From Heloderma charlesbogerti (lineage: Eukaryota; Chordata; Lepidosauria; Squamata; Helodermatidae), in assembly GCA_026122225.1 (NCBI GenBank), contig JANEZZ010002661.1:558001-622000 (forward strand): 64,000 nt of DNA, given 5' to 3'. Every line of letters begins with the position of its first letter. Within the stretch, counting starts at the first letter, position 1. The translations under genes were made by a program, and so were the position numbers. The notes below the pieces were generated by a model. It did not search any database. It had not been told where the DNA came from and saw only the letters and a list, made by a program, of their open reading frames with translations. This document shows positions 6,041-62,241 of the stretch, piece after piece.

Positions 6041-6457
6041 AGGTATGCGGGATGGCGTAGTGGATGCCATTTGAGTCCCCGCTCTTTGTCGTGATAGGCT
6101 ACATCAATCTTTATGTAGCCTATCACGGCAAACAGCAGGGATGCAAATGGCGCAGCGGACGCCATTTGCGTCCTTGATCTTTGCCGTGATAGGCTACGTA
6201 AAGATTGACATAGCCTATCATGGCAAAGAGAAGGGACATAAATGGCATCTGCTACGCCAGATGCCATTTGCTTCTGCAGACCGGTAGTGGATGGCAGCTG
6301 ACGGACCGGACCCAGCTGGTGGCAGGTAGGATCCGTTCTGGGAAAACTTTGCGGGGTGGTGGAGGTGGGTGGTCTGTTCTGCCACGGACTCCGAGGGGCC
6401 GGAATCTTTAGAATCCAGCCTCATTGGAGTCCGTGGCGGAATTCTCCGCCATCCCTA
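6041..6457 (-). mobile_element. MP-hAT copy 1 (one end truncated)
   Basis: The right end is the family's 'type 2' terminus, reading inward from CTCCGCCATCCCTA at 6444-6457. The interior holds hairpins with arms GTGATAGGCTACATCAATCT / AGCCTATCACGG and CGTGATAGGCTACGTAAAGA / CATAGCCTATCATGG, separated by CATTTGCGTCC blocks. A GGTAGG motif sits near 6325. The left end (near 6041) does not show the TAGGGATG terminus and no 8-bp duplication is found, so this copy is truncated or rearranged on that side. It is non-coding and lies 35 bp from copy 2. Confidence 0.75.
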
Positions 6458-6492
6458 CTTAAAAAAATGGAAAATCGTTGGTGAATGACAGG

Positions 6493-7233
6493 TGGGGATG
6501 TATGAAAATCACTTACCTTTCGGGGATTATGCTGATGGTGCAGGGGGAGGCGTTCCGTCCCTACCCCCGGAATCCTCACAAGGGGGGGAGGTGCTCCATT
6601 CCTCCCCCCCCCCGGAATCCTGGCCAGCCGGCTGTGCTCCACAGTGATTCTGCGGAGCCGCCGGCCGGCTCCGCCAGCAGCCGGACATCTGGCCGCTGGC
6701 TAGCAGGGACGCAAATGGCAGCGGCCGTAGCCGCCGCCGTTTGCATCCCTGCAGTCAGCCGTGATAGGTTACGTAAATGTTTATGTAGCCTATCACGGTT
6801 GAGTAAACAAAAAAACAAAAAAACACGCGTGTACGCAAATGGTGCACCGCCATTTGCGTACGCACGTGTTTTTTGTTTTGTTTTGTTTTACTCAGCCGTG
6901 ATAGGCTACGTAAACATTTACGTAGCCTATCACGGTGTTTTTTTAAAATCTAGCCGTGATAGGCTACGTAAATCTTTACGTAGCCTATCATGTTTTTTTT
7001 TTACTGGAAATGGCGGCGGTGGCAGCTGGTCGGAAGACCGGCCACCACAGCCGCCGCCGCCAAACTGCCGCCGGAGCCGCCGCCGGAGCCGCCACCGCCA
7101 GGAAGATCCGCCCCAGGTAAGTCTCGTCCTGCGGGGGGGGGGGGGCAGATCGTTCCACCACCAATTTCGGGGGGCCGAATGCGCTGGCATTCGGCCTCCC
7201 CGAGATCCGTGGAGGAATTCTCTGACATCCCTA
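6493..7233 (-). mobile_element. MP-hAT copy 2 (741 bp, TSD ATGACAGG)
   Basis: The 8-bp duplication ATGACAGG occupies 6485-6492 and 7234-7241. The left end is 'type 1' (TGGGGATGTATG, then ACTTACC at 6511-6517) and the right end is 'type 2' (CTCTGACATCCCTA). The interior includes three TACGTAAA hairpins (about 6757-6800, 6893-6935, 6952-6990) and a palindrome built on ACGCAAATGG / CCATTTGCGTACGC at 6820-6885. The GC-rich ends carry GCCGCC runs. An outward-facing GGTAAGT is at 7116-7122. Open frames here, up to 271 codons, are low-complexity products of the GC-rich palindromes and not genes. The 8-bp duplication and TAGGG-type terminus point to the hAT superfamily. Confidence 0.9.
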
Positions 7234-7241
7234 ATGACAGG

Positions 7242-7380
7242 CCCCCAACATGTCATTCACCAACCCAGAACCAAATTTCCAGATGGCAACTGAGAAGAAG
7301 TTTTTTTGTAAGCCACCTTGTGTCCCAATACTGGAAAAAAGGTGGGGTATAAATATTATAAGATGATGATGATGATGATG
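7242..7380 (+). mobile_element. LINE/SINE 3' tail ending in (GAT)n
   Basis: The stretch contains 'gtaagccaccttgtgtcccaatactgg' and 'aaaggtggggtataaatatt', a tail shared by many L2/CR1-mobilised tetrapod repeats. It closes with a run of GAT repeats. MP-hAT copy 2 lies inside the 5' part of this repeat. Confidence 0.55.
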
Positions 7381-8067
7381 AAACAGGCCAATGAGAAGGC
7401 AGGACAATTGAGGGATGTCACTGAATCAAGAACGCAAATGCCAGAACCCTCTGGTCACTCTTCTCATTTCATTTGACTTTTTACTTAGCTTCAGTTTCTT
7501 AGCAGATTGTTGCCTGTTCTGGAGCTGTTTTGATCCTACTTTTCCTTTTTGCCTTTTCTTTGAAAGGGAAGGGATTTCTTACTTCGACCATGTTCCTTCT
7601 GAAACTGTGCCTGGCCATTTTTTCTGAGCCAGCCTTTTGGGGTTCAAACGTCACTACTTTACTTTTTAAAAATCTTTTTCTCCATCTCCACCTGGCAGCC
7701 CTGGTGCAAGCTCTCTCACCTCATGAGGAAGGAGAGAACCTGTACCGCCGCTGCTGCAACACTCTGTCAGGAATTAATCTGAGTGTGTGGAGATGTCTGG
7801 CCAGATTCAGAATCAGAATGGGAACAGCAAGAACATAGGTGTGCCCAGATATGGCAAGACTTTCTTCCCAAGACCTTGACACACAGATGGGCCAGCCTGA
7901 ATGGGTCCCCCATTCCTGCATCATAAGAACTCAAGTTTCAGAGGGAGAGGGAGAGGCGGGTGAAGGGCATGACTTGAGGGATGCTGGGCTCCATCACAGA
8001 GCAAAGCGGGAAAAGTTAGGGGCAGAGCTCAGACGCTCCACCAGGTTGGCCACTTGTGGAAGCCAAT

Positions 8068-8602
8068 TGTCAGGGTTGTATCTGAGCCCGCAGAGTCCCA
8101 AAGCAGCTCTGATTCTGAGGAGGAGAGACAACTCATGAGGGAGGAACTCTCTCAGACTTCAGAGGCGCAGCTGGAGGGGGAGCCCCCCCTCCTCACATCC
8201 CTGGGAGCGACAGTGAAGGGAGGGACAACCTGAACTTTTAGATGCAAGGCACAGACACAGGCACAAGCGAGAAATCGCAGGAGCCGAGCTTCGGTGCTCA
8301 GCCTGATTGGCTTGACGCCAACAGCTGCGCCCAGAAGCATCACGGGAGAGGGGGAGATCTTCCCCTCCCACCCCTTAAGTTCAGAGAATTGCTGTGTTTT
8401 TCCCAAACAGAGATCAACTGACATCCTAACCCTTAGAAACTCCTAGATGGCTGTTCCTTTGTAGTTTCTCTGAGTCTCAAGCAATTAGCATCTGTATGCC
8501 TCATTAGGATAAATGGTATTAAAGCCTTGGAAAGCAGCCCTTTTGTCTGAGTGGTGATTTTGGCTATTGGAGAATTCAGTAGGCAACAGGGGTATCCTGG
8601 CA
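8068..8602 (+). mobile_element. Solo LTR, copy 1 (535 bp, TSD CCAAT)
   Basis: The element begins TGTCAGGG and ends TATCCTGGCA, with the 5-bp duplication CCAAT at 8063-8067 and 8603-8607. It aligns by eye with the elements at 22175-22726 and 57274-57827 through shared blocks: 'cccaaagcagctctgattctgaggagg', 'agatcaactgac', 'caattagcatctg' and 'attaaagccttggaaa'. The last is a likely polyadenylation-signal region. A TG...CA terminus with 5-bp duplication fits a Ty3/Gypsy-like or retroviral-type LTR. No second LTR or internal coding region is adjacent, so it is a solo LTR. The family is not identified. Confidence 0.85.
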
Positions 8603-10520
8603 CCAATGTAGGAGGGAGCCACTACAAGGGAGCGGCATCCCTGTGAAGGAAGTCTGTCTGTGAAGTTCATGCCCAGACTGCTGGCAACTTCTCTAACTTC
8701 CACTTCGTATCCTTTATTGATATTCGTAGATGTGTGGATTAGCTGTTTCTATGCAGTCTGAGAGTTTCCTAGAACCTGCATTTGTAAAGAAGCTAGTCAT
8801 TTACGAATAAAGTAGTGTTGCCCTGAAGCTTTGTTTCCTGGTGTGTGTAGATTGTGAAGGGAGAGGACAAAGGAACATGACACAAGCCCCCATCCCACTT
8901 CCCCCTTCTCATGCCACCCTTACCTTTGCTGCTGCCCATGCTCTGTTTGCCTCATCATGTGGAGAGCCACATAGCTGGAAGAAGTGGCTGTGGTGCTCTC
9001 ATGAGAGCTTGCCCAGATCTTACAAGACCCCCACAGCTGCTTCATCTGGCCATGGGGCTTTCCATGCAGTGAGGCAAACAGAGGGTGGATGGCTGCTTTA
9101 GGGAGCCCCGCCAGCCACTCCCTCACTGCAGGCAGCAGGCAGGCCCTCCTGGGGGTGGGGCAGGGGGCATCAGTGCAATTCACCACTCCTCCTGCTTCAC
9201 CACCTGATGCAGGTGCCTCACCCTGCTTCATGGGATGGCTAGCCCTGCCACCTAGCTCAGTCTTCCTCAACTCTCATCTGAGGCCAGATGAGGCTGTCTC
9301 CTCTGTTTTGGATAGATAGCTATAAGTCTTCGTTCCCTAATCTTTAGGTTAAACTACTATATAATTGGAAACATAGTAAGCTTTAACTAGTCTGGACTGG
9401 TGAAAGTTTTAGGTGGTTGAAATTTTGGGCTTAGTAATATATATACTTTATTGATAGCTGTTTGATGATGATGATAATGACGATGATGATTTTAATTAAT
9501 TTATTTTATGTAAATTGCTGCTATCTTTATATTTACATTGTACTGTCTGATCCCTTGGATTAATTTTCTATTGTTTCTGAATTTCCATTTTCACATTTTC
9601 CTCCAGTCAATCATTCCGTGTATCTACTTGTCCATGTATACATTGCTCTCATTGCTGGCTCTGAATGTTTTAATCATTTTTCATTGAATACATCTTTCAA
9701 ATTTATTTTCTGGCTCTGGTCTTTTCTAGTTATCAGTAGAAGCTCAGTGGAGCAAGCTCAATAGAGCTAAAATTCAAACCTATTTTCAGTTGCTTAATCC
9801 TATTTCACCTGGATTTTCTAAGTTCCATGTCTCTTTTTGAGACTATGAGGGGAAACTGGAGAGGGGTGAGTGATGGTCTTGACTTTGTTCAGTATTACTG
9901 GCTTTCCTTTAACAGAGCCAAAATTCTATTCTGAGAGTCAGCAAAGTTTGAAAAGCTAGTCCTAACTGTCATGTGCATGTAAGTCTCATTTCCTATTTTT
10001 ATCATTTTTGTCAAAGGCACGGCACCAGTTTGCATATTTTAAATGGGCTTCCTACAAAAAAAAATGCCATTGAAATGTTAATAAGTTAGTCACCTAAGCA
10101 GATGTTTGGTTACACAGCTTTGGTCCAAGTCCTGTTTATAACTTGCCCATCTCTAATTGGCCCAGGGACCTGGAATCAAGGAGGAATGATTTTGATATAA
10201 AAGAGAGACTGGAGACAAAATAATGGAACAAGGAGCTTGCTTTCTTCCTTTTTCCTGTCCTGCTACCTGATGCCTTGTAAGACAGGAGTGGCCTAGAATG
10301 CACACAGTCAGAACCATCTTTGATTGGACACTTTGAAATGGTCTAAATGAAGATTTTTTTTTAGAACTTTTGGATTTGGGGGCCCTGTTTGATACTTCCA
10401 TTCTAACCAATACATGAAGGAAAGCAGCTATCTAAGTAACCTTATTATAACAGAAGAATGAGTAGAGGAAAGATTGCTAGCAGGGGCCAGATGGAATGAT
10501 GGGTTGAGTTACAAGTCAGT
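8603..10520. other. Unique sequence, no gene recognised
   Basis: The stretch contains an imperfect GAT-type microsatellite near 9463-9490 and otherwise unremarkable A/T-rich sequence. Short open frames around 8841-9320 have no recognisable domain. Confidence 0.5.
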
Positions 10521-10523
10521 TAA

Positions 10524-10910
10524 GGGAGCAATCCTAGGTGGATTGATGGTCACCTCCGAGCCTGGAGGTAACCACCTATCCAGTGCAGGGTGTGAGGAGT
10601 GGATCTCCCCCCTGCTCCCACTGCCCTGCTTTCACAGCTAGACAGCCAATTTCAGCTGTCTAGCTGAGGGGGCCTGGAGCATGGGAAGGGGTGGCCGAAC
10701 GACACATAGGATGTGTCGTACTGGCACTTCTGACCTTGCCACCCCAGCCCTCCCCCCGGAATGCCCCATTTACCCCGCTCCACGCTGTTTTTCCAAGCGC
10801 TGAGTGTGGGGCTGATCCGTGCTGCCTACGAGGGGGTGAGGGTCAGTTTCCAGGAACTGACCTATCCTATGGCCATCTAGCCGCTGACTAGCAGCCATAG
10901 GATTGTGCCC
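10524..10910. mobile_element. 387-bp Harbinger-type MITE (TSD TAA)
   Basis: The left end GGGAGCAATCCTAGG pairs with the right end CATAGGATTGTGCCC. TAA flanks both sides (10521-10523 and 10911-10913). The terminus matches the 135-bp MITE at 1792-1926, but the interior is a different GC-rich filler with a small palindrome, CAGCTAGACAG...CTGTCTAGCTG, near 10636-10663. It is non-coding. Confidence 0.75.
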
Positions 10911-11372
10911 TAAGAAAATCAGTTAGAACTGGGAGCTGACTGGGAGATGCTTCGTTAAAAGGCAGAGTTAGTTGACTTCAAAGTCAGGGCTGACAAGGTT
11001 AGTTGGTTCAAAGAGAAGTGTTAGTGAGATCACAGATGTTAGGTTATTAGAACCATTATTTATTATTCATCAAATGTTTACTTGTTCTGGATGTTGCTAT
11101 GTCCCATAAATAAATATATGTTTAATGGTTTAACTATGTGAGTTCTGATCTGGTGGATGCGAAGTCTGATGTATCTCATGCCATGTGCTGGCTTTGAGAT
11201 ACACAGTTAAGCATATAAAAGAAAGAGTTCTACTGCTCTCTGTAAATCAGTAGATGGTGACAACAAGCTATTTTTGGAAGATATTAGGGAACTATGGACC
11301 AGCTGACTGACATATCCAATGATTCTAAGGGCCAGGGCTTTCTGGGGTCCCCTAGATATGTCACACCTATAT

Positions 11373-11984: not shown

Positions 11985-12881
11985 TAGGGATGGCGGAGAA
12001 TTTCTCCCCGAAACTTCGGGGGGCCGAGCGCCAATGTGTTCGGTCCCCCGAACAAGTTTCGGGGAGAAATTCTCCACACACCCCCGTACCCCGCACCCCC
12101 CCCAGGACGGGACTTACCTTTGCCGAATGTCCCTCCCGGCAGCGGGTCCGGCTGGCGGTTCGGCGGGTGTTCGTGCGGGGCAGGAGCGGCAGCTGGTCTT
12201 TCGACCGGCTGCCGCCGCCGCCATTCCAATAAAAGAAAAAAAAAAACGCCCCCGTGATAGGCTACGTGACGATTAATGTAGCCTATCACGGCTAGATTTG
12301 CAAAGTCAGCCGTGATAGGCTTCGTAAATCGTCACGTAGCCTATCACGGGTGACTTAAAAAAAAAAAAAAAAAGCGCGTACGGATAATGGCGGCCCCCAT
12401 AGGGAGCTGCCATTCCCGTTCCTTATTTGGTCGCTGTAGTCTACGTAAAGATTTACGTAGACTACAGCAAAAATAAGGGCAACGCTAAATCTTTACGTAG
12501 ACTACAGCGACCAAATAAGGAACGCGAATGGTGGCTCCCTATGGGGGCCGCCATTAGCGTACGCGCTTTTTTTTTTTTTTTAAGTCACCCGTGATAGGCT
12601 ACGTGACGATTAACGTAGCCTATCACGGCTGACTTTGCAGATCTAGCCGTGATAGGCTATGTTAATCGTCACGTAGCCTATCACGGGGGCTTTTTTTTTT
12701 TTTTTAACTTTGGAGTTCGCGGCCGGGTGAGGCGGGAAGCCTCCTCCCCAGCCTAAATTTCGGCCGGGCGAGGCGGGAAGCCTCCCCCCCCAGCCTGAAC
12801 TTCATGGGGGGAGCAGTGAAGCGCCTCCCCCCCATCGCGAACAAGCTTTGACGACAGGTAAGTGACTTTCGTCCACCCCTA
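11985..12881 (+). mobile_element. MP-hAT copy 3 (897 bp, TSD GTCATCAC)
   Basis: The duplication GTCATCAC is at 11977-11984 and 12882-12889. It matches the hAT target pattern nTnnnnAn, and the insertion splits an L2 reading frame. The left end is 'type 2' and is itself a palindrome: GAGAATTTCTCCCCGAAACT pairs with the complementary block ending near 12076. The right end is 'type 1' (TTCGTCCACCCCTA). Between them a multi-level inverted repeat spans 12248-12690, containing CGTGATAGGCTACGTGACGA-type hairpins, A/T-run spacers, CCCCCATAGGGAG blocks and TAGTCTACGTAAAG hairpins. Outward GGTAAGT motifs are at 12112-12118 (complement) and 12857-12863. Confidence 0.92.
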
Positions 12882-12889
12882 GTCATCAC

Positions 12890-13217: not shown

Positions 13218-13225
13218 CTCCCAAG

Positions 13226-14190
13226 TAGGGGTGGACGAAAGTCACTTACCTGTCGTCGAAGGCCATTCGCGGTGGGGGGGAGGTGCTTCGCTGCTCCCCC
13301 CGTGAAGTTCAGGCCGGAGGGGGAGGCTTCCCGCCTCGCCCGGCCGAAATTCAGGCTGGGGGGGGGAGGCTTCCCGCCTCGCCCAGCCGAAATTTAGGCC
13401 GGGGAGGAGGCGCCTCGCCCGGCCGCGAACGCGAAAGTAAAAAAAAAAACACGCCCCCTGATAGGCTACGTGACGATTCACGTAGCCTATCACGGCTAGA
13501 TCTGCAAAGTCAGCCGTGATAGTCTACATGAATCGTCACGTAGCCTATCACGGGTGACTTAAAAAAAAAAAAAAAGCGCGTACGCGAATGGCGGCCCCCA
13601 TAGGGAGCCGCCATTTGCGTTCCTTATTTAGTCGCTGTAGTCTAGGTAAATGTTTACATAGACTACGGCGAAAATAAGGGCAACGCAAATAGCGTTGCCC
13701 TTATTTTCGCCGTAGTCTACGTAAACATTTACGTAGACTACAGTGACCAAATAAGGAAGGGGAATGGCGACTCCCTATGGGGGCCGCCATTATCCGTACA
13801 CTCTTTTTTTTTTTTTTAAGTCACCCGTGATAGGCTACGTGACGATTCACGTAGCCTATCACGGCTGACTTTGCAAATCTAGCCGTGATAGGCTACGTGA
13901 ATCGTCACGTAGCCTATCAGGGGAAGTTTTTTTTTCTTCTTTCATTGCAATGGCGGCGGCAGCAGCCGGTCAAAAGACCGGCTGCCGCTCCCGCCTCGCT
14001 CGAACACCCGCGGAACCACCGGCCGGACCAGCCACCGGGAGGGACATTCGGTGAAGGTAAGTCCTGTCCCGGGCGGGGGTGCGGGGTGCGGGGGGGTGCG
14101 GAGGATTTCTCCCCGAAACTTGTTCGGGGGGCCGAACACGTTGGCGCTCGGCCCCCTGAAGTTTCGAGGAGAAATTCTCCGCCATCCCTA
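13226..14190 (-). mobile_element. MP-hAT copy 4 (965 bp, TSD CTCCCAAG; fullest palindrome)
   Basis: The duplication CTCCCAAG is at 13218-13225 and 14191-14198 and fits nTnnnnAn. The left end is 'type 1' (TAGGGGTGGACGAAAGTCAC) and the right end is 'type 2' (CTCCGCCATCCCTA). The core is an approximately 469-bp inverted repeat, 13455-13923, centred near 13689 on GGGCAACGC...GCGTTGCCC. Each arm contains further complete palindromes: two CGTGATAGGCTACGTGA hairpins and one TAGTCTACGTAAA hairpin. Outward GGTAAGT motifs are at 13244-13250 (complement) and 14056-14062. It is the longest of the three closely related copies 3, 4 and 5. Confidence 0.92.
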
Positions 14191-14282: not shown

Positions 14283-15138
14283 TAGGGATGGTGGAGAATT
14301 TCTCCCCGAAACTTCAGGGGGCCGAGCACCAACGTGTTCGGCCCCCCGAACAAGTTTCGGGGAGAAATCCTCCGCACCCCCCCACACCCCGCATCCCCCC
14401 CTGGGACGGGACTTACCTTCGCCGAATGTCCCTCCCGGCGGCGGGTCCGGCTGGCGGTTCGGCGGGTGTTCGTGCGGGGCGGGATCGGCAGCCGGTCTTT
14501 CAACCGGCTGCCGCCGCCGCCATTCCAATAAAAGAAAAAAAACACGCCCCTGTGATAGGCTACGTGACGATTAACGTAGCCTATCACAGCTAGATTTGCA
14601 AAGTCAGCCATGATAGGCTACGTAAATCGTCACGTAGCCTATCACGGGTGACTTAAAAAAAAAAAAAAAAGCGCGTACGGATAATGGCGGCCCCCATAGG
14701 GAGCCGCCATTCCCGTTCCTTATTTGGTCACTGTAGTCTACGTAAAGATTTACGTAGACTACAGCGACCAAATAAGGAACACGAATGGCGGCTCCCTATG
14801 GGGGCCGCCATTAGCGTACGCGCTTTTTTTTTTTAAAGTCACCCGTGATAGGCTACGTGACGATTAACGTAGCCTATCACGGCTGACTTTGCAGATCTAG
14901 CCGTGATAGGCTATGTTAATCGTCACGTAGCCTATCACGGGGGCGTTTTTGTTTTTTTTTAAATTTTCGAGTTCGCGGCCAGGCAAGGCGGGAAGCCTCC
15001 TCCCCGGCCTGAATTTCAGCCGGGGCGAGGCGGGAAGCCTCCCCCCCCGGCCTGAACTTTGTGGGGGGAGCAGCGAAGCGCCTCCCCCCCACCGCGAACA
15101 AGCTTCGACGAAAGGTAAGTGACTTTTGTCCACCCCTA
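14283..15138 (+). mobile_element. MP-hAT copy 5 (856 bp, TSD CATTGCGC)
   Basis: The duplication CATTGCGC is at 14275-14282 and 15139-15146, within the left end of the GGGGCC-TIR element. The left end is 'type 2' and the right end 'type 1' (TTGTCCACCCCTA). The inverted repeat spans about 14546-14944 (399 bp). Relative to copies 3 and 4 the central hairpin block is shortened to a single TAGTCTACGTAAAGATTTAC hairpin near 14735. Outward GGTAAGT motifs are at 14411-14417 (complement) and 15114-15120. Differences from copy 3 are few and many are C-to-T or G-to-A at CpG. Confidence 0.92.
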
Positions 15139-17282: not shown

Positions 17283-18123
17283 TAGGGATGTACGAAAGGT
17301 ACTTACCTTTCACGGATTATGTTTACGGTTGGGGGGGAGGCGTTCTGCCCCTCCCCCTGGAATCCTTGCCGGGGGGGGAGGCGCTCCGTTCCTCCCCCCC
17401 CCCTCGGAATCCTGGCCGGCCGGCTGTGCTCCGCAGCGATTCTGCAGAGCCACCGGCCGGCTCCGCCAGCAGCCAGATATCCGGCCGCTGGCTAGCAGGG
17501 ACGCAAATGGCGGCGGCCATAGCCTCCGCCGTTTGCGTCCCTGCAGTCAGCTGTGATAGGCTACGTAAATGTTTACATAGCCTATCACAGTTCATTAAAA
17601 AAACATTAAAAAATGTGCGCATGCAAATGGCACGCTACGCTATTTGCGTTCCCCTTATTTTGCCGTCTTAGTCTACGTAAATGTTTACGTAGACTAAGAT
17701 GTGCCAAAATAAGGAATGCAAATGGCGGCCGTGGTTGCCGCCATTTGCGAACGCGCTTTTTTTTTTTTAAGTCAGCCGTGATAGGCTATGTAAACATTTA
17801 CATAGCCTATCACATTTTTTAAAAAAAACCTAGCCGTGATAGGCTACGTAAATCTTTACGTAGCCTATCACTTTTTTTGTTTTGTTTTTAAACTGGAAAT
17901 GGTGGCGGCGGCAGCTGGTCGGCAGATTGGCCACTGCAGCCGCTGCCGCCGAACTGCCGCCGCTGCTGGAGCTGCCGCCACCAGGAAGATCCACCCAAGG
18001 TAAGTCTCGTCCCGGGGGGGTGGCGGGGGGGGTGGCGGGCCGTTCCGCCACCAATTTTGGAGGGCCGAATGCGCTGTCATTTGGCCTCCCCGAGATCCGT
18101 GGTGGAATTTTCGTACATCCCTA
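17283..18123 (-). mobile_element. MP-hAT copy 6 (841 bp, TSD CKTCTGGG)
   Basis: The flanks are CGTCTGGG (17275-17282) and CTTCTGGG (18124-18131), 7 of 8 identical. The left end is 'type 1' (TAGGGATGTACGAAAGGTAC) and the right end 'type 2' (TTTTCGTACATCCCTA). Hairpins with TGATAGGCTACGTAAATG arms occur near 17553-17591, 17774-17814 and 17832-17871, and a TTAGTCTACGTAAA hairpin near 17668-17699. Outward GGTAAGT-like motifs are at 17301-17307 (complement) and 17999-18005. It is inserted in the L2 reverse transcriptase region. Confidence 0.9.
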
Positions 18124-25242: not shown

Positions 25243-25977
25243 TAGGGATGTTGGAGAATTCCACCACAGACTCCAGTGAGGCTGGATTCCATGGCGGAAT
25301 GGGGCAATCCCCCCCGCCACCCCACAGAATCCCCCCGGGACGGAGCCTACCTGGTGGCGGATGCGGTGGTACTGGTGGATGCGGCGGCAGCAGATGCAGT
25401 GGCAGATGCAGTGGTGGATGCGGTGGCGAATGCGGTTGCAGTGTCGGCTCCAGCTCCTCTTCCGGCCCCTGCAGCTCCAAATGGCAGCCGTCATAGTGGC
25501 CGCCATTTGCGTAGCTGCTTTTTGCCAGGATAGGCTATGTAAATACTTACATAGCCTATCACGGCAAAGAGCAGGGGTGCAAATGGCAGCCGCTATGCCA
25601 TTTGTGCCCCTGCTCTTTGCCGTAATAGGCTACGTAAGTATTTACATAGCCTATCACGGCAAAAGGCAGCCACGCAAATGGCAGCCACTACGCCATTTGC
25701 ATCCCTGCCTTTTGCTGTGATAGGCTACATAAATACTTACATAGCCTATCATGGCTTAGCAGAGACGCAAATGGCGGCCGGCATAGCGGCCGCCACTTGC
25801 GGCCACAGCAGCCTGGCAGTGGCTGGAATCTAGCTGTGGCCAGCCCTGGCCGCTAGCTCCGTGGAGTTGCAGCGGAGCGGAGCTGGCCGGGGAGGATTTT
25901 GGGGGGAGAGACAGAGTGCCTCCCCCCCACCGCGGATGTCCCTGAACGGAGCCAGGTAAGGGATTCGTACATCTCTA
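25243..25977 (+). mobile_element. MP-hAT copy 7 (735 bp, TSD CCAACACA)
   Basis: The perfect duplication CCAACACA is at 25235-25242 and 25978-25985, inside the L2 endonuclease region. The left end is 'type 2' (TAGGGATGTTGGAGAATTCC) and the right end 'type 1' (TTCGTACATCTCTA). The interior alternates TGATAGGCTACGTAAGTATT-class hairpins (near 25520-25563, 25619-25662 and 25715-25755) with GCAAATGGCAGCC / GGC-type palindromes. Outward splice-donor-like motifs read CCTACC on the left (complement GGTAGG) and GGTAAG on the right. A GGATGCGGTGG-type short tandem lies near 25355-25440. Confidence 0.92.
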
Positions 25978-41707: not shown

Positions 41708-42471
41708 TAGGAATGGCAGAGAATTCCGCCACGGATCTCGGGGAGGCCGAATGCCAGTACATTCGGCCCCCCAAAATCTGTGGCGGAACGGCCTGCCCCC
41801 CCGCCCCCCCCACAGATCCCCCCGGGACGAGACTTACCTGGGGCGGATCTTCCGGGTGGCGGCGGCAGCGGCAGTGGTGGCAGCTGCAGTGGCTGGTCTT
41901 CCAACCAGCTGCCGCCGCCACCGCCACCACCATTTGCAGGTTTTTGGTTTTTTTTACACACACATGATAGGCTATGTAAGTTTTTACGTAGCCTAAAACA
42001 TCTGGGTAAAAAAAAAAAAAAAAGGCATACGCAAATGGCGGCGGCTATGGCCGCTGCCATTTGCATTCCTTATTTTGGGCCGTCTTAGTCTACGTAAATA
42101 ATTACGTAGACTAAGACGGCGAAAATAAGGGGAATGCAAATAGCGTCTGCTACGCTATTTGTGTTCCCCTTATTTTCGCCGTCTTAGTCTACGTAAATAT
42201 TTATGTAGATTAAGACATCAAAAATAAGGAATGCAAATGGCGGTGGCCGTAGCCGCCGCCATTTGCGTACGCGGTTCCCCCCCCCCCCAGAGCCCTCTGC
42301 GGCCGGAAATCCGGCTGGGGACGGCTCTGGCCTGGCTGGGCCTGGCTGGCTGCTCCATGGAGCTGCCGCGGAGCACAGCCGGCCGTGGAGGATTCCGGGG
42401 GGGAGGAACGGAACGCCTCCCCCCCCCTAAACATAATCCGCAAACAGGTAAGTGATTTTCGTACATCCCTA
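41708..42471 (+). mobile_element. MP-hAT copy 8 (764 bp, TSD ATGTGGAG)
   Basis: The perfect duplication ATGTGGAG is at 41700-41707 and 42472-42479 and fits nTnnnnAn. The left end is 'type 2' (TAGGAATGGCAGAGAATTCC) and the right end 'type 1' (TTCGTACATCCCTA). The interior has hairpins TTAGTCTACGTAAATAATTA near 42086-42116, its partner near 42183-42213, and AATAGCGTCTGCTACGCTAT near 42138-42160. CGCAAATGGCGGC / GCCGCCATTTGCG pairs lie near 42030-42065 and 42233-42270. Outward GGTAAGT motifs are at 41832-41838 (complement) and 42447-42453. Confidence 0.92.
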
Positions 42472-44323: not shown

Positions 44324-45682
44324 GGGGCCAATCTACATTGTGTTTGCTAGCACAAAGAAGTCGGTAGAATGTCACGTTAAATTCAATCACATTGAAATGT
44401 GATTATTCACACTCACTCTTTTTCCCTGTTCCAGTACTTCATCAAATGCGCAAGCATGGTTCACTCTGTAGCGCTGTGCTCTTTTCCTGCTTTTAAAGAA
44501 GGCGGCTCACATGAGAGAGGCAGTAACTCTTCCTGTTTCTGCTGATTCCCTGCCAGAGATGGAGTGAGCATCCAAGCCCAGAGAGAAGTTGTTGGTTCGG
44601 CCCCCAGACACTAGTTCGCAGACCTGAGCTCTAGTGTTGTATGAACCTCCCACTTTCCGGTCTGGGGGGGGAGGGGGTTTGCAAATCTTCCAGAGTGGCT
44701 CCACGTCCAGAGGATTTCGTGGAGCAGCACTCCGGCTCCCTACACCAGGCGACACAGTAATGGCTGTTTGTCATCGTCCCTCTTCCGCATGTCGGCTTGC
44801 AAAGGCTGGTGTGGGGAAGAGGGGACTCGGCGCAGCCACCCCCCAGCGCTCTCACCCTGCCCTCCTCTAGAGAAGCCCAGAGCAAGAGGTTGGGGGGTGG
44901 CTGCTGAGGCCCTTTTCCCTGTGCCAGCCCTTGACAGCCAGCGCGAGGAAGAGGGGTGGCAGTGGCACCCCAGTGCTTGGGTTTGGGGGGGTCTGCTTGC
45001 ATCTTCGAAGCTTTGAAGCTTTGAAGCTTCAAAGACTGCCCTGTTTTTGTCCGCTGATTTCCGACCATGACATGACGTTAATATTGTGTACAGACATTTT
45101 TACTGATGTTAGTCCGTGAACAGTGATGACTGTCTGCCTGGATGTGTGTGTGTGTCTTTCTGTTCAGGACAGCACGCTATGAGCATGGAAGGGACTGTGA
45201 AAAAATTTATGGTTGCCAGGGCTTGCTCGGGCAAGTGTGCAGAGAAATTGGGCTGGAAAAGCTACGATTCTTCAAAGGTTCGAAGATAATTCCTTAATTA
45301 AAAAAAAAAAAAAGCCAAAGCGGGGGATAGAAGGAGGTAAAAGTTGGCGATAAAACTCCGAGTGCTGAGGAAGTGATGCTATCAGTAGCTGGAAGACCAC
45401 ATGGGGCTTGAGAGCTGTGATTCGACAGGAGGGAAATACAAACACCACCATATAAGGACAGGTGTGGAAAGAAAACTCCATGCCCATATACGGTAACTAA
45501 AGCAGAAAAGCAGATCACATGAATGAAATCTATTCGGAAATCACAGAATATCAGGGTAATGAAAGCGATAACAGGACAGCGGGAAATTGCAGTTCCAAAA
45601 CGAAACAGAGAGAGCATCATGTGAAACGAGGGGAACAAAAACTCATTGGAAACATAAAAAAAGCGAGTGTAGATTGGGCCCC
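44324..45682 (+). mobile_element. GGGGCC-TIR element, copy B (1359 bp)
   Basis: It starts GGGGCCAATCTACATT and ends AGTGTAGATTGGGCCCC. It follows copy A (14264-16618) along its length, including 'cttcgaagctttgaagctttgaag' (45004-45027), the 'gacatttttactgatgttagtccgtga' block, and the terminal 'tgaaatctattcgga...gaatatcaggg' block. Unlike copy A it has neither an MP-hAT nor a 5S-derived insert. No transposase frame was recognised; open frames of up to 145 codons on either strand look like chance frames in GC-rich DNA. It is therefore likely non-autonomous. The duplication next to the TIR is not clear. Confidence 0.75.
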
Positions 45683-51160: not shown

Positions 51161-51557
51161 TATGTGAATCCCTTCATGGATCAGTGCCTTCTTGTGGTGA
51201 AGGGGCTTGCGTAATTCAGTGAAGTCATAAGCTATGCCGTGCAGGGCCACCCAAGACGGACAGGTCATGGCAGACAGTTCTGACAAAATGTGGTCCACTG
51301 GAGAAGGAAATGGCAACCCACTCCAGTATTCTTGCCAAGAAAGCCCCATGGAACGTATCACAATGCTAAACGATATGACACCAGAAGATGAGACCCTCAG
51401 GTCGGAAGGTGTCCAATATACTACTGGGGAAGAGCAGAGGGTATTTCCAAGTAGCGCCAGAAAGAGTGAAGCGGCTGGGCCAAAGCCGAAAGGACACTCA
51501 GCTGTGGATGTGTCTGGTGGTGAAAAGAAAGTCCAATGCTGTAAAGAACAATATTGT

Positions 51558-51893
51558 TTAGGAACCTGGAATGTCAGATCAATGAATCAAGGTAAGCTGG
51601 AGGTGGTCAAACATGAGATGGCAAGATTGAACATCGACATCTTGGGACTCAGTGAACTAAAATGGACAAGCATGGGCGAATTTAATTCAGGTGACCATCA
51701 TATCTACTACTGTGGGCAAGAATCCCTTAGAAGAAATGGAGTAGCGCTCATAGTCAACAAAAGGGTGGGAAAAGCAGTACTGGGGTACAATCTCAAAAAC
51801 GATAGAATGATCTCAGTACGAATCCAAGGCAAACCATTCAACATCACAGTAATTCAAGAAAAAGAAATGCAAGAAAGCCAAGTGGCTGTCTGA
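51558..51893 (+). pseudogene. Bov-B endonuclease N-terminal part
   Basis: The frame shows 'LGTWNVRSMNQGKLEVVKHE' and 'LDILGLSELKW'-type text ('NIDILGLSELKWTSMGEFNS'). These are the N-terminal asparagine and glutamate motifs of the AP-type endonuclease. It is followed by 'RRNGVALIVNKRVGKAVLGY'. After 'KPFNITVIQ' near 51857 the sequence jumps to the pre-RT region, removing the catalytic SDH part, so the nuclease is not functional. Confidence 0.88.
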
Positions 51894-53359
51894 TGAGGCT
51901 TTACAAGTAGCTGAGGAAAGAAGGGAAATGAAAAGCAAGGGAGAAAGGGGAAGATATATCCAACTGAATGCAGAGTTCCAGAGAATAGCAAGGAGAGACA
52001 AGAAGGCCTTCTTAAATGAACAATGCAAAGAAATTGAGGAAAACAACAGAATGGGAAACACTAGAGATCTCTTCAAGAAAATCGGAGATCTCAAGGGAAC
52101 GTTTTGTGCAAACATGGGCATGATAAAGAAGGCAGGGACCTAACAGAAGCAGATGAGAACAACAAAGCTAGCGGAGATGACAGTATTCCAGCTGAGCTAT
52201 TTAAAATCCTAAAAGATGATGCTGTTAAAGTGCTGCACTCAATATGCCAACAAATTTGGAACACTCAACAGTGGCCACAAGACTGGAAAAGGTCAGTTTA
52301 CATTCCAATTCCTAAGAAGGGCAATGCCAAAGAGTGTTCAAACTACCGCATAATTGCGCTCATTTCACATGCCAGCAAGGTTATGCTCAAAATCCTACAA
52401 GCTAGGCTTCAGCAGCATGTGAACTGAGAACTACCAGAAGTACAAGCTGGGTTTCGAAGAGGCAGAGGAACTAGAGATCAAGTCGCCAACATTCGCTGGA
52501 TCATGGAGAAAGCAAGAGAATTCCAGAAAAACGTCTATTTCTGCTTCATTGACTACGCTAAAGCCTTTGATTGTGTGGATCACAACAAACTGTGGCAAAT
52601 TCTGAAAGAGATGGGAGTACCAGACCACCTTGCCTGTCTTCTGAGAAACCTGTACGAGGGTCAAGAAGCAACAGTAAGAACCAGACATGGAACAACCGAT
52701 TGGTTCAAAATTGGGAAGGAGTACGACAAGGCTGCATATTGTCACCCTGCTTATTTAACTTATATGCAGAGTACATCATGAGAAACGCCGGGTTGGATGA
52801 ATCACAGGTTGGAATTAAGACTGCCGGGAGAATTATCAACAACCTCAGATATGCAGACGATACCACCCTAATGGCAGAAAGCGAAGAGGATCTAAAGAGC
52901 CTCTTGTTGAGGGTGAAAGAGGAGAGTGCAAAAGCTGGTTTCAAACTCAACATTAAAAAAACTACGATCATGGCATCTGGCCCCATCACTTCCTGGCATA
53001 TAGAAGGGGAAGAAATGGAAGCAGTGACAGATTTTATTTTCTTGGGCACCAAGATCACCGCAGACGGTGACTGTAGCCATGAAATTAAAAGACGTTTGCT
53101 CCTTGGGAGGAAAGCTATGGCAAACCTAGACAGCATAGTAAGAAGCAGAGACATCACCTTGCCGACAAAGGTCCGTCTAATCAAAGCTATGGTTTTCCCA
53201 GTAGTAATGTATGGCTGTGAGAGCTGGACTAAAAGGAAGGCTGAGTGCCGAAGAATTGATGCTTTTGAACTGTGGTGCTGGAGAAGACTCTTACGAGTCC
53301 CCTGGACTGCAAGGAGGTCAAATCAGGCAATCCTAAAGGAAATCAACCCTGACTGCTCA
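51894..53359 (+). pseudogene. Bov-B reverse transcriptase region
   Basis: Blocks in order are 'LNAEFQRIARRDKKAFLNEQ', 'KASGDDSIPAELFKILKDDA', 'CSNYRIIALISHASKVMLKI', 'YFCFIDYAKAFDCVDHNKLW', 'GCILSPCLFNLYAEYIMRNA', the catalytic 'LRYADDTTLMA', and 'RRIDAFELWCWRRLLRVPWT'. Disabling changes include the deletion near 52140, a stop at about 52425 (after 'LQARLQQHVN'), and a frameshift near 52727. The frame then stays open from there to the MP-hAT insertion at 53360. Confidence 0.9.
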
Positions 53360-53771
53360 TAGGGATGGCAGAGAATTCTGCCACGGATCTCGGTGAGGCC
53401 GAATGCCAGTATTTGCATTCCCCTTTATTTTCGCCATCATAGTCTATGTAAATATTTACGTAGATTAAGACAGCCAAAAATAAGGAACGCAAATGGCGGT
53501 GGCTGTAGCCGCCGCCATTTGCATACGCAGTTCCCCCCCCCCCCCAGAGCCCTCCGTGGCCGGAAATCCGGCTGCGGATGGCTCTGGCCTGGCTGGGCCT
53601 GGCCGGCTGCTCCACGGAGCTGCCGTGGAGCACAGCCGGCCGTGGAGGATTCCGGGGGGCAGGAATGGATCGCCTCCCCCCCCGTTGAGGATTCCGGGGG
53701 GAGGAATGGAACGTCTCCCCCCCACCATCGACATAATTCGCGGAAAGGTAAGTGACTTTTATACATCCCTA
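53360..53771 (+). mobile_element. MP-hAT copy 9 (412 bp, TSD ACTGCTCA)
   Basis: The perfect duplication ACTGCTCA is at 53352-53359 and 53772-53779, inside the Bov-B C-terminal coding region. The left end is 'type 2' but is cut off after about 50 bp (TAGGGATGGCAGAGAATTCT). The GC-rich left arm and most hairpins are missing. One AGTCTATGTAAATATTTACG hairpin remains near 53440-53470 and one GCAAATGGCGG / CCGCCATTTGC pair near 53489-53523. The right end is 'type 1', with outward GGTAAGT at 53747-53753. The intact duplication shows the internal deletion happened before or during transposition. Confidence 0.92.
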
Positions 53772-56240: not shown

Positions 56241-56254
56241 TTTACCCTATCAAC

Positions 56255-57030: not shown

Positions 57031-57238
57031 ACTTTCTGAAGCACAGAAAGAGTGAAGAAAAACAACAATGCATTTGGAATTTCTTGTTTCCAAGCTCCTC
57101 ACATTTTCAAAATTCCTTCTCCCCTGCCCTCCACCCACCCAAAATAGAAACATACTTTAGAGACCACATTATTAGCCACCAAGCTGTCAACATGGTTGCC
57201 TCATCCTTCCCTGCCAAGTTATTTCTGCAGGTCACTAA

Positions 57239-57927
57239 GGGCACAACCCTATACATGTTTAGACAGAAAAAAATGTCAGGATGGAAACTGAGCCCATAGA
57301 GCCCCAGAGCAGTTCTGATTCTGAGGAAGAGCAACAACCCGTGGGAGAGGAGCTCACTCATCGTTCACAGGCACAGCAGCAGGGAGAGATTCCTCCTGCC
57401 TGCATTCCTGAGAGAGATAGTGACCCTGGCAGCGAGAGAGCAGGGGATGGGGCCTTGCTGGATGCTCGTTGCAGACGCAGGGAGCGGCGCTAGATGGGGG
57501 GCGCCGAGAGGAGGTGCTCTGCTCGCTTGACGCTAAAACAACGGTCATGTCCCGAGGACCCAAGGGTAAGAGGGAGGACCTCTCCATAGCCCATAAGTTC
57601 AGAGGCTCCCCGCTCTTCTCATTCAAACAGGGACCAACTGCCTTACCTGGAGCTTAGGCTACTCTGCTAACTACCCCAGTGCAGTTCCTTGCTTAGTCAC
57701 TGGTGATTAGCATCTGAAAGAGTCATTAAGTTGTAAAGGAATAAAGCCTTGGAAAGAATCCTCTTCATCTGTGTCTTGAGTTGGCTATTGGAGGGGACTG
57801 TAAGAGGCAGCTAGGGCGCTCCTGACAAAAAAAGCCCTATAACTTCCAGCTTTCCTTGAAATGCTGGAATGCTGAAAGTTGTAGGACTTTTTATGTCTAA
57901 ACAATAAACATGCATAGGATTGTGCCT
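57239..57927. mobile_element. Harbinger-type MITE interrupted by a solo LTR (TSD TAA)
   Basis: The left arm GGGCACAACCCTATACATGT with TTAGACAGAAAA lies at 57239-57270. The right arm 'tttttatgtctaaacaataaacatgcataggattgtgcct' ends at 57927. TAA flanks both (57236-57238 and 57928-57930). Without the LTR it is about 130 bp and matches the MITE at 1792-1926. Confidence 0.8.
57274..57827 (+). mobile_element. Solo LTR, copy 3 (554 bp)
   Basis: It starts TGTCAGGA and ends with the exact complement TCCTGACA, giving an 8-bp terminal inverted repeat and the TG...CA signature. A-runs of at least five bases on both sides agree with a 5-bp duplication (AAAAA) but do not prove it. The blocks 'ccccagagcagttctgattctgagg', 'gattagcatctg' and 'ggaataaagccttggaaa' match the copies at 8068 and 22175. 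It sits inside a Harbinger-type MITE, so the LTR is the younger of the two. Confidence 0.85.
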
Positions 57928-57930
57928 TAA

Positions 57931-60040
57931 ATTGCTCTTTCCTACATCTGCTGACTATTTGTTCTTATTAGCCACGCTCTCCAAACTGTCCACTTTGCCT
58001 ATCTTCTATCCTTATGTCACAGCTCTTGCCAGACCAGAGACAGAAGGAAGATGGCAAAGAGTCTCTCTCATAGGGAAGGAACCAGTAGGGGCCCCTTTTC
58101 TCATTGGGAGCATGCCCGTCCTGGAAACTTTGATAAGGGTCATGGAGTACCATGTAACCCACTCTATTATTGTTAAGAGGCATCCTTGGTGATCTGGCTA
58201 GTTTCCACCAATGCCTACAGCCTGTGTGCAGGCTCAGGCTGAATCCCTGATTGGCATCCATCCCTTAGGTCCCAGGTACAATTCACATTCTAGGCTTAAG
58301 TCCCAACATGTTGCCTATCAGCACTTATTTGTATCCATCGTCTGACTGCATCATGTGATTGTTTTCTCAGAATAGTTTGGACTGTTGTCCAACTTACTAC
58401 AGTAACAGTTCCATCTTGCCTGGCTCTCTTTGTCTGACTTTCTCAGGATGTTATGCTTGATACTGCCATACACTTTTGCTCCAATTACACCAAACACACA
58501 ATCTGTAGTTCCAGTTTCTCCAGCATGCAAATACCCAAGTACTGGTCATGAAATCTGCCTCCATGCATTCACAAAGCACAGTGCCTCTCCCAGCCCCACA
58601 TAATTTACATTCCCCAAACAAGCCCAGTTGATAAAGCAGCGTTATGCATATTTTAAATCAGTATTTTAGGAGGCAAGTTTATTTCGCATTCCACTTATTC
58701 ACGCTGATCCTTTTCCGATGTTCCAGCTGCCAAACAACAGCAGTAAATTTGAATAGCCTTCCCCTACTGCTCTACCCTTTTGCTGGAAGTGCTGCAACTG
58801 AGAGGATTATTCATGTCAAAGCAAAACAAAGAAAAAACTGCTTTCAGTGCCTACAAATATTACTAATTAGTAGTCTGTGCAAAGGCGTGTTTGCAATACA
58901 GCTGTCTGTTCCCTCTTACACTTCCCACCTCAGTCTGTCTACTGCATATCCATGTTGTCTGGTATTATAAAGTGTGTGTGTGTGTGTGTGTATTTGGGTG
59001 GGGAAGACAGAACTGTTTGGTAGCAGCTGTTTTTCCAGTATTAGTAATAATATTGAGGGGGGGACTCTACTTCGTAAGGCAGGTTTGTAAAACCCTTTCA
59101 CTCTAGAGCTGTAGTCTTTATTTTTTTCCAGACTATGACCCAGGGCCAGTGTCAAGGGTGGGCATGGTTCGGCACCTGCCAAGGGCCCACAATCCAGCAG
59201 GGGCCCACTAGCAAGAGCCCCCTGGAGATGTTCCTCTTCTTTGCCATTGCCACCTTCAGCTATTGGGTGGTATAGAAATGTAATAAACAAACAGACAGAG
59301 TAGATAGAATAGAATAAAACCCTGCCTCTCGCTCTGGCCCAGACGAGAGTGGTGCTGAAAAGGAGGAGCAGTAGATGCCATGGCCTCTGCCTGTCAAGCA
59401 GGCAACTGGTAGCAATGAAGAGAAAGAGGTTGAGGAGCAAATGCAGCTGGTGACGATGATGGTGAGAAGATAGACTCACTGAGGAAGGGGGTCTATTGAG
59501 TGTGTCTTGCCCAAGGACCCTAAGAAAACTGTAGCCAGCACTGCTAAGACTTACCTAAATCCAACCTGCAACATGGGCTCATTTTTCATTGTTTACTATA
59601 TATGAATGGGTATTTCTGCTTCTCTCTAATTTTCCACCCCTCCCTACAACTTTCTCCATGGGAGTGTTTCCACACTATCAGCTTCACTTTGTTTGCCATG
59701 TTTCCCCATTCGCATTTTCTTCTGTTCCTGTTTACACAGCCCTTAAAGACCTGGCTTATCATCACTGTAGCCTGGGGCTCTGTGCTGTTTCCATTGAGCT
59801 CTAATGGAATAATTTTCTTGATGGCTGGGTGGAGTCTGAGTGGAGTCTGGGTCGGGTCTGATTATCTCATCAGTGTTCCCACCTCCTCTGCCATGTTTCC
59901 AGGCCAACGGAAGGAGAAGCTAATGGAGGAGTACCGGATTTTTAAAAAGGAATTAGCTTTGCTGTGAAGAGAGGCTTCCCCCCTCTCTTCCCCCCGTTTC
60001 TCCTTTCCCCTGAAAGTCCAGATACACCTGCATTTCACGG
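57931..60040. other. Mostly unique sequence, no gene recognised
   Basis: A (GT)n run lies at 58972-58992. A short LINE-tail relic 'gctattgggtggtatagaaatgtaataaacaaac' lies at 59254-59290. A 187-codon minus-strand frame at 58916-59479 has no recognisable domain. Confidence 0.45.
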
Positions 60041-60924
60041 CCAAGCCTCATTGAGCACCATGGGAGTTACTTCCGAGTAGGTACTCATATGCTTGTGCTG
60101 GGAAAGTGGGGGAGAACACAAAGAGGGAAACCAGCCCCCATTTTAACCCAGAGGACCTAACTGACCACAATGGGAGTTACTTCTGATGAGACAGTAATGG
60201 GTTTGCTGGGGGAAAGAAAGCGGTAAACACAAAGACAGAAACCAGCCCACATTGTAACCCACAGGATATCTATTAGGAAGCTGTCTTCCTAAGGCAATTA
60301 TTCAGAGCCTCAAGATCCCACTTGATCACTTAAGCGCAATTAAGGAATTGGGCTTAAAGGTGTGCCATCTCAATTTAGGGGGAATTGCTGTAAATTCTGA
60401 TGTGGGCATTCAAAGGCATGCCTCATTCAGCACAATGGGAGTTACTTCTGAGGAGACACTAATGGGTTTGTTGTGGGAAAGAGAGTAGTAAACACAAAGA
60501 TGTTACATCCCCCATTGTAACCTGCAGGATCTCTATAAGGAAGCTGTCAAGTACTTTTTTCCTAAGGCAATTCATTGGAGCCTCATAATCCCACTTGGTC
60601 ACTTAATCACACTTAAGGAAATGGGCTTTAACATGTGCCATTTCAATTGAGGGGGAATCTCTGTAAGTTCTGATGTGGGCATTCAAAGGCAAGCCTCATT
60701 GACCGCAATGGGAGTTACTTCTGAGGAGACACTAATGGGTTTGTTGTGGGAAGGGAGCAGTAAACTCAAAGACAGAAACCATCCCCCATTGTAACCTGCA
60801 GGATCTCTGTACGGAAGCTGTGAGTTTTGTCCTAAGGCAATGGACTGGAGCCTTGACATCGCGCTTAATTGCATTTGAGGAATTGGGCTTCGATATGTGC
60901 CGTGTCAACTGAGGGGCCTCTCTG

Positions 60925-61647
60925 TAGGGATGTCAGAGAATTCCGCCACGAATCTCGGGGAGGCCAAATGTCTGCCCCCCCCCCGGATGGGACTTACCTT
61001 GGGCGGATCTTCCTGGCGGTGGCGGTGGCTCTGGCGGCGGTTCGGCGGCAGTTCGGCAGCGGCGGCTGCGGCGGCCGGTCTTCCGACCGGCTGCCACCTC
61101 TGGCATTTCCAGTTAAAAAAAAAAACAGAACGTGATAGGCTACGTAAAGATTTACATAGCCTATCACAGCTAGATTTTTAAAAAACACCGTGATAGGCTA
61201 CGTAAATGTTTACGTAGCCTATCATGGCTGATTTAAAAGAAAAAAAAACACGCGCGTACGCAAATGGCGGTGCCCAGGGTGCCGCCATTTGCGTTCCTTA
61301 TTTTGGCACGTCTTAGTCTACGTAAACATTTACGTAGACTAAGGCGGCGAAAGTAAGGGGAACACAAATAGCGTAGACGCCATTTGCATACGCGCGTGTT
61401 TTTTTTTCTTTTAAATCAGCCGTGATAGGCTACGTAAACATTTACGTAGCCTATCACGGCTGACTGCAGGGACGCAAACGGTGGCGGCTACGGCCGCCAC
61501 CATTTGCAGAGCCAGCCAGCCAGGATTTGGGGGGGAAGGATGGAGCGCCTCCCCCCCCAGCCAGAATTTCGGGGGGAGGGACAGAGCGCCTCCCCCCCAC
61601 CACAAATGTCACCCTTCGAAAAGGTAAGTGACTTTTGTACATCCCTA
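60925..61647 (+). mobile_element. MP-hAT copy 10 (723 bp, TSD CYTCTCTG)
   Basis: The flanks are CCTCTCTG (60917-60924) and CTTCTCTG (61648-61655), 7 of 8 identical. The left end is 'type 2' (TAGGGATGTCAGAGAATTCC) and the right end 'type 1' (TTTGTACATCCCTA). It contains the clearest unit hairpin, 61419-61460, with two perfect 20-bp arms (GCCGTGATAGGCTACGTAAA and complement) and a 2-base spacer. A TTAGTCTACGTAAAC hairpin lies near 61312-61343. Outward GGTAAGT motifs are at 60992-60998 (complement) and 61623-61629. It is inserted in the last unit of the tandem array. Confidence 0.92.
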
Positions 61648-61662
61648 CTTCTCTGTTATTTC

Positions 61663-62241
61663 TAGGGATGTTAGAGAATTCTGCCACGGATCCCAGGGGG
61701 GCCGAATTCCAGTGAATTTGGCCCCCTGGAATCCATGGCAGAACAGAGCCCCTCGCTCCACCACCCCGCGAAAACCCCGCAAAACGGAGCCTACCTGGCT
61801 ACGGCTATGGCTTTGGCGGCGGCTCCGGCTGCTGCCGGGCTGCTGCAGCTGCAAATGGCGGCCGTCATAGCAGCTGCCATTTGCGTCCCTACACCAGCCC
61901 GTGATAGGCTACGTATATACATATACGTAGCCTATATACGTATACGTATATACGTACACCATTTGCGTCCCTGCTTTAGCCGTGATAGGCTACGTAAATA
62001 TTTACATAGCCTATCATGGGCTTGTGTAGGGACGCAAATGGCAGCAGCTGGAAGCCTCGCTGTGGGTTGGCCCGGCCGGCAGCTCCACGGCCTGGCTGCG
62101 GAGCAGAGCCGGCCAGGCAAGATTCCAGGGGGGAGGAACGGATCGCCTCCTCTGTCGAGGATTCCGGGAGGAGGAGTGGATCGCCTCTCCCCACCTGCAG
62201 AACCCGGAGGAGCCAGGTAAGTGGGGTTTCGTACACCCCTA
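61663..62241 (+). mobile_element. MP-hAT copy 11 (579 bp, TSD GTTATTTC)
   Basis: The perfect duplication GTTATTTC is at 61655-61662 and 62242-62249. The left end is 'type 2' (TAGGGATGTTAGAGAATTCT) and the right end 'type 1' (TTTCGTACACCCCTA). One hairpin has expanded into an unusual ATACGTATA-rich block, 61900-61955. An ordinary TGATAGGCTACGTAAATATT hairpin follows near 61980-62018. Splice-donor-like motifs read CCTACC on the left and GGTAAG on the right. It starts only 15 bp after copy 10 ends. Confidence 0.92.

Follow-up and report, generated by a model that had tools for sequence, protein, structure and literature searches.

The window analysed here is a 64-kb stretch of the genome of Heloderma charlesbogerti (contig JANEZZ010002661.1; C2431:558001-622000), the host genome comprising 2,302,168,690 bases (2.30 Gb). 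A reading made from the letters of this DNA, referred to in the following as the sequence-only reading, had claimed that the window harbours a hAT-type transposon family built of nested palindromes. Scanning for element ends and flanking target site duplications (TSDs) recovered ten complete copies of 0.4 to 0.97 kb and an eleventh, truncated copy (c0) with one end, in agreement with the claimed census (Table 1). The copies sum up to 7,930 bp, which corresponds to 12.4% of the window (about 12% had been estimated) and leaves 56,070 bp of other sequence. The same genome contains a 9,387-bp element that shares both ends with the copies and bears an open frame for a hAT transposase. We are highly confident that the copies represent non-autonomous cut-and-paste elements of this parental hAT system, and that the type represented by c2, c3 and c4 arose from inverted copying of the parent's right end, designated the B end.

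hAT elements possess short terminal inverted repeats (TIRs) that start with C/TAGNG, and such termini are found here. The terminus TAGGGATG is exact in ten of the 11 A ends (c7 is one base off) and in four of the ten B ends, the other six differing by one base. Among the B ends, the one of c1 reads TGGGG and does not conform to TAGNG. The two ends can be told apart, since A ends resemble TAGGGATGNNRGAGAATT (with the exception of c5) and B ends resemble TAGGGATGTACGAAAGTCACTTACC when read inward. All complete copies are flanked by 8-bp TSDs, eight of them perfect and two with one mismatch, as the sequence-only reading had stated. It had also noted that seven of the ten TSDs have T as their second base. 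Arriving at seven requires that the two mismatched TSDs be scored by the side that bears the T; among the eight perfect TSDs it is five. The consensus for TSDs of the Ac group is nTnnnnAn. In a set of 21 perfect TSDs, read in element orientation, T occupies position 2 in 12 cases and A position 7 in nine, a lean in a modest sample to which no significance test was applied; the finder behind this set recovers eight of the ten window copies and misses c6 and c10.

Diverged relatives of the targeted host repeats provide paralogous empty sites within the window. They were found for c2, c3, c4 and the c9+c10 pair, and carry the single, often diverged, 8-mer that is expected if the hAT assignment is correct, whereas no such relatives were detected in the window for c1, c5, c6, c7 and c8. 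The 273-bp tandem array at window positions 60164-60853 consists of 2.6 copies, and its next unit received both c9 and c10, the targets of which overlap by one base. The insertions are clustered, as four of the ten gaps among the 11 copies measure 350 bp or less (simulated P ~0.002 under uniform placement). This clustering would suit an origin of the copies as segmental or tandem duplicates instead of insertions. However, every complete copy has its own 8-bp duplication and empty sites exist for five copies; the distinct TSDs refute an origin by duplication, which we consider practically inconceivable.

Table 1. Copies of the palindromic hAT family in the 64-kb window (positions refer to the window; donor string, perfect match to the splice-donor consensus at the B end).
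Copy	Position	Strand	State	Length (bp)	TSD	B-end donor string	Empty-site relative	Remarks
c0	6041..6457	-	truncated				 	A end only (at 6457), no B end; hairpin modules
c1	6493..7233	-	complete	741	ATGACAGG	6511-6519		
c2	11985..12881	+	complete	897	GTCATCAC	12855-12863	two LINE-like relatives, 36131-35918 and 28001-27904	
c3	13226..14190	-	complete	965	CTCCCAAG	13244-13252	LINE-like relative, 27811-27573	self-complementary at 13433-13943
c4	14283..15138	+	complete	856	CATTGCGC	15112-15120	repeat, 44325-44538	
c5	17283..18123	-	complete	841	CGTCTGGG/CTTCTGGG (1 mismatch)	17301-17309		
c6	25243..25977	+	complete	735	CCAACACA	CAGGTAAGG (8/9 match), 25953-25961		
c7	41708..42471	+	complete	764	ATGTGGAG	42445-42453		
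c8	53360..53771	+	complete, internal deletion	412	ACTGCTCA	53745-53753		
c9	60925..61647	+	complete	723	CCTCTCTG/CTTCTCTG (1 mismatch)	61621-61629	units of 273-bp tandem array	lies in 273-bp array unit
c10	61663..62241	+	complete	579	GTTATTTC	62214-62222	units of 273-bp tandem array	

The parental element was found through a genome search with PF05699, which returned at least 150 matches (150 scored of 871 candidates). It spans C235:52195-61581, carries the A end TAGGGATGTCAGAGAAATTC and the B end ...AAAGGTAAGTGACTTTCATCCACCCCAA, and is flanked by the TSD CACAACAC, which matches at 8/8 positions. Its transposase frame, located at element positions 3047-5683, reads from the A end and is open over 879 codons. 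Pfam models identified a hAT dimer domain (Dimer_Tnp_hAT, 60.7 bits, cut-off 21.4) and a BED finger (zf-BED, 23.3 bits, cut-off 20.6), i.e. both domains occur together in an element sharing ends of the c2–c4 type. As a check, the sequence-only reading had suggested searching for a longer element in which the two ends enclose a hAT transposase; the presence of such an element in the same genome bears out the hAT assignment. In addition, two stretches of the transposase align, albeit weakly, to that of the insect element Hermes (6dww; 21.6 and 35.0 bits), covering the dimer region and preserving the D, D, CxxH, RW and E positions, of which we take D, D and E to be catalytic. Roles of CxxH and W in hAT transposases have been addressed previously (PMC4763223). 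Judged by its ends and TSDs, the system is probably a hAT of the Ac type, and it would be recent in the host genome.

The transposase protein has at least 53 matches in the host genome (53 scored of 1,308 candidates) that are 86-100% identical, and 12 of them extend over the whole 847 residues and are free of stops. A further eight long copies were inspected where their ends were expected to lie. Six of these eight, namely those with the 879-codon frame, exhibited a B end containing AGGTAAGT, and an A end was detected in three; among the copies with both ends, the TSD matches at 8/8 positions in C838 and at 7/8 in C2955. Outside the host, the nearest relative scored among 5.8 billion proteins is a ZBED4/ZBED6-like protein of Sceloporus (LOC121921799; 41% identity over 88% of the transposase), which likewise combines BED and hAT dimer domains; such relatives were compared as protein records only. 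The 17 protein matches obtained (of 7,994 candidates scored) include proteins from lizards and geckos, from a frog, a tick, a fish and a grass, and from unnamed sources. Five named relatives are squamate (Sceloporus, Phrynocephalus, Eublepharis, Sphaerodactylus and Heteronotia), in keeping with the squamate assemblies to which the sequence-only reading had pointed. The tick, frog and fish proteins (P0009, P0010, P0012) are 32-39% identical to the transposase. Old horizontal transfer is a possible origin of these three relatives.

The interior of the short copies is rich in inverted repeats. Perfect inverted repeats (arm of at least 12, spacer of at most 12 bases) number 28 inside the copies as compared to two in the other 56,070 bp, and 20 single-base shuffles of the copies yielded a mean of 0.0. 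As smallest units, we distinguish a 40-bp hairpin H (CCGTGATAGGCTACGTAAA...), its relative K with TAGTCTACGT, and palindromes P of the GCAAATGGCGGC type. The sequence-only reading had described an interior of repeated perfect hairpins. Hairpins and palindromes are indeed present, but few are perfect: of 38 modules, only two lack mismatches in the 19-bp arms, while 31 have one to three and five have more. The YY1-like motif AAnATGGCGGC (as we take it to be) was dropped, with no occurrence inside or outside the copies; the shorter ATGGCGGC occurs 23 times inside and once outside, but belongs to the palindromes. On a larger scale, c2, c3 and c4 align to their own reverse complements over 524 bp (93.8%), 511 bp (92.7%) and 433 bp (93.0%), respectively. 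Long inverted repeats also dominate Foldback and Galileo elements (PMC3688188, PMC2775673). However, Galileo belongs to the P superfamily, and in the present family the large inverted repeat is internal (e.g. ~228-751 of 897 in c2) instead of reaching the ends, the termini being short and hAT-like. The copies resemble miniature inverted-repeat transposable elements (MITEs) in being short, noncoding, present in high copy number and sharing ends with a transposase-bearing element, but their interior is not AT-rich (GC content 56.1% versus 42.8% outside), and we therefore use the term MITE loosely. Coral CMITEs have conserved interiors, too, but generate TTAA duplications (PMC2872659).

The parent explains the anatomy of c2–c4. 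Its last ~390 bp hold palindromic modules, that is two H hairpins and one K-like unit, but only the right half of the large palindrome. Positions 502-895 of c2 correspond to parent 9033-9385 (91.7%), and positions 246-503 correspond to parent 9001-9255 in inverted orientation (89.6%). Similarly, the right halves of c3 and c4 match the parental B region at 92.5% and 90.9%, and their left arms match it in inverted orientation at 88.8% and 87.0%, respectively. Positions 1-29 of the A end of c2 and c3 equal parent 1-28 at 86-89%. Thus, the nested palindrome of c2–c4 is an inverted duplication of the right, B-terminal region of the parent, capped with the left end. Mechanistically, template switching or gap repair during DNA synthesis would have joined an inverted copy of the parent's B-terminal stretch to that same stretch, giving rise to the order A end, inverted B-subterminal region and direct B-terminal region. 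Transposase acting in trans would then move the small elements and make the 8-bp duplications. Template switching is known to be able to create and repair hairpin stems (PMC8794818).

In a tree of the arms from six copies, which leaves out c0, c6, c7, c8 and c10, the arms of c2–c4 and the parent split from all arms of c1, c5 and c9 with 100% bootstrap support. This fits with separate duplications in two lineages, i.e. the same event may have taken place independently in the c1/c5/c9 lineage, or with later homogenisation of the arms. One could also imagine that the large palindrome is ancient and that ongoing conversion within each element keeps its two arms alike. The clustering of arms by lineage would agree with such a scenario, as would the finding that each of the four H hairpins of c3 deviates from those of c2 and c4 at one and the same position on the loop side. 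However, the two arms of a copy in c2–c4 are no more alike (differences of 0.067-0.087) than arms taken from different copies (0.029-0.109), the left arms show a tendency to form a group of their own (70%; the grouping of the right arms is weaker), and the parent shows the right half of the palindrome only. Concerted evolution of whole arms in c2–c4 is not supported by these values, and we regard an ancient, converted palindrome as unlikely in comparison with inverted duplication of the parental B end.

Covariation in the hairpins raised the additional question of selection on RNA structure. In 37 modules, both sides of a pair have changed in 42 cells, as compared to a mean of 12.5 in 1,000 shuffles (maximum 22), and 87.8% of the cells pair versus 79.1% in shuffles. 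However, the 12 further pair types remain inside the shuffle range (mean 8.3, maximum 14), neither strand is favoured among the broken pairs (26 G-T versus 37 A-C cells), the shuffles ignore relatedness among the modules, and inverted duplication or template-switch repair yields the same covariation (PMC8794818). Moreover, Rfam returned no match at gathering scores. Maintenance of the hairpins by such selection appears very improbable.

Several observations weigh against our view that the copies belong to the parental system and derive from it. Neither end was seen in two of the eight further long copies (C1779 and C356), the A-side stretch of three others lies within the element, and C1330 lacks a TSD (four mismatches) despite having both ends. 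The parent (L052) contains a ~97-bp G-rich tandem array upstream of the transposase frame (element ~749-1244). Length variation of this array may explain why the end is missing from the three A-side stretches. Bootstrap support for the inner nodes of the arm tree is low (29-70%). Even in their longest matching pieces, c1, c5, c7 and c9 reach only ~73-80% identity to the parental B region, and c0, c6 and c10 match the parent mainly over the ~40-bp hairpins, suggesting that the parents of these seven copies are not among the elements read. The history of the copies other than c2–c4 would thus be proposed by analogy. Furthermore, ~215 bp inside the A end of c2–c4 have no convincing match in the parent, and derivation of the A-side donor motif from an inverted B-side copy found no support beyond the motif itself (scores of 18-24 versus shuffle maxima of 24-26). 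Finally, movement of the elements is inferred.

A conspicuous feature of the copies is a subterminal splice-donor string, MAG|GTAAGT. All 16 perfect strings of the window reside in copies and face outward, at nine of the ten B ends and seven of the 11 A sides, whereas none occurs in the 56,070 bp outside. Its AGGTAAGT part is present near the right end of nine of the ten complete copies (c6 has AGGTAAGG) and in all seven parental B ends read; no other eight columns of the B end are as well conserved (0.988, versus 0.925 for the terminal repeat). Each of the ten B ends has C or A as the preceding base, in the manner of splice donors, and maize Ds and Ds1 are known to supply splice sites (PMC5432752). 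The string might hence be kept for a role at the RNA level, with element transcripts splicing into host exons or U1 protecting host transcripts, and the elements would be exon traps. However, the parent carries the string at its B end only, 3.7 kb past the transposase frame, where no function for the parental genes is apparent, and lacks it at the A end. The string is retained in 20,345 of 27,286 exact B-end 18-mers, equivalent to ~3.6% change per base versus 2-5% at other non-CpG sites, i.e. it decays in a neutral-like manner; in a wider set it is intact in 27 of the 31 copies listed (two rows represent one locus). Strings matching at eight of nine positions occur 35 times outside the copies. 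In a 200-kb genome sample (20 stretches, each of 10 kb, from five contigs; they were placed at round coordinates and are thus not truly random), ten perfect strings were counted, seven in family sequence and three elsewhere. Another repeat-like sequence (ACTTACCTGGGAGTA...) carries a perfect string in two sampled stretches (L014:6175, L028:8286). Decay is ~5-fold faster at CpGs than at other positions. The interior thus does not represent a protected CpG island, which weakens the idea of a CpG-island promoter. The CpG ratio (0.95 inside versus 0.23 outside the copies) fits with youth of the copies instead; non-CpG differences from the group majority amount to 2.0% in c2–c4 and 5.0% in c1, c5 and c9. 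Selection for an RNA role is therefore a rather doubtful proposition, and the conserved ACTTACCT motif, which reads outward as a donor, would mainly be a recognition motif for transposase that happens to be a strong donor. As for motifs common to both parental ends beyond the TIR, AGTCACTT occurs within 60 bp of each, but a 7-mer common to both ends likewise turns up in 495 of 5,000 shuffles, and the match therefore has no evidential weight. For this reason, we regard an RNA role of the donor string as slightly less doubtful than we otherwise would.

The parent contains a second frame at positions 8012-8467 on the minus strand (152-153 codons), opposite to the transposase and nearer to the B end, which matches Myb_DNA-bind_4 with 37.7 bits (cut-off 27; the query had three extra residues) and thus resembles Myb/SANT proteins. 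The frame is open in all four copies read (also L071, L072, L073; for C1330, the stretch includes the last 120 codons only). Its DNA is ~98% identical among the four copies, which makes the open frame only mild evidence for selection. As it ends near a CTGGTAAGT string, it may constitute one exon of a spliced gene. Searching 5.8 billion proteins gave 27 candidates, none at E <= 0.001. In PIF/Harbinger elements, which generate 3-bp TSDs, the transposase is likewise accompanied by a Myb/SANT-like protein; here, in contrast, the transposase is of the hAT type and the TSD measures 8 bp. By analogy with Harbinger, one may speculate that this is a two-gene hAT, in which palindromic modules close to the B end serve as binding sites for the Myb/SANT-like protein, helping the transposase to locate this end. 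The inverted duplication would have doubled the binding sites and allowed the small elements to spread, and the palindromes would be docking arrays and not debris. We put this forward as a tentative and rather unlikely scenario. Among the literature matches listed, there is no example of a hAT with a Myb frame.

The family is abundant in the host. The exact 20-mer of the hairpin arm occurs 43,499 + 43,486 times genome-wide (reversed control: 0) and an exact B-end 18-mer 27,286 times (control: 0). In the 200-kb sample, 4,703 of 200,000 bases (2.4%) match the window copies, as compared to 12.4% of the window, a comparison that favours the window because the queries were taken from it. An exact arm 16-mer matched two stretches in viral contigs, a number given here without a chance level. 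Elsewhere in the window, open frames of a long interspersed element (LINE) with endonuclease and reverse transcriptase domains, presumably of the BovB type, occupy positions 51231-53362, the last frame running into c8. Pfam analysis of ten window open reading frames (ORFs) outside the copies detected reverse transcriptase in five (three below Pfam's own cut-off), endonuclease in one, no family in four, and no transposase, smaller or decayed frames and the remaining ORFs not being scanned.

Taken together, the defining hAT features that were examined are present, and the system appears to work like maize Ac/Ds, with grouping by ends and TSDs. Ac/Ds has the terminus C/TAGGGATGAAA - TTTCATCCCTA and 8-bp TSDs, and its short non-autonomous partners share mainly the ends and subterminal motifs (PMC3260210); the first eight terminal bases are identical to those of the present family, whereas the following AAA is not. 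Ds and Ds1 resemble the present copies also in providing splice sites, as mentioned above. In contrast to Ac/Ds, for which no palindrome arrays are described in the text consulted, the present family has a palindromic interior and an outward donor string, and its parent is larger (9.4 kb versus 4.6 kb) and contains a second frame. The sequence-only reading did not recognise the family as a named element. A palindromic hAT element of this kind is not among the literature matches listed, which is weak evidence for its novelty. A hAT with a second, Myb-type frame that is open in all four copies read would be unusual. With at least 20,345 exact outward donor strings beside right ends, an effect of the family on host splicing is directly measurable. 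Short non-autonomous transposons are usually explained by internal deletion. Here, the parent and its short partners share one genome, and the anatomy of c2–c4 provides a concrete route to palindromic short elements.

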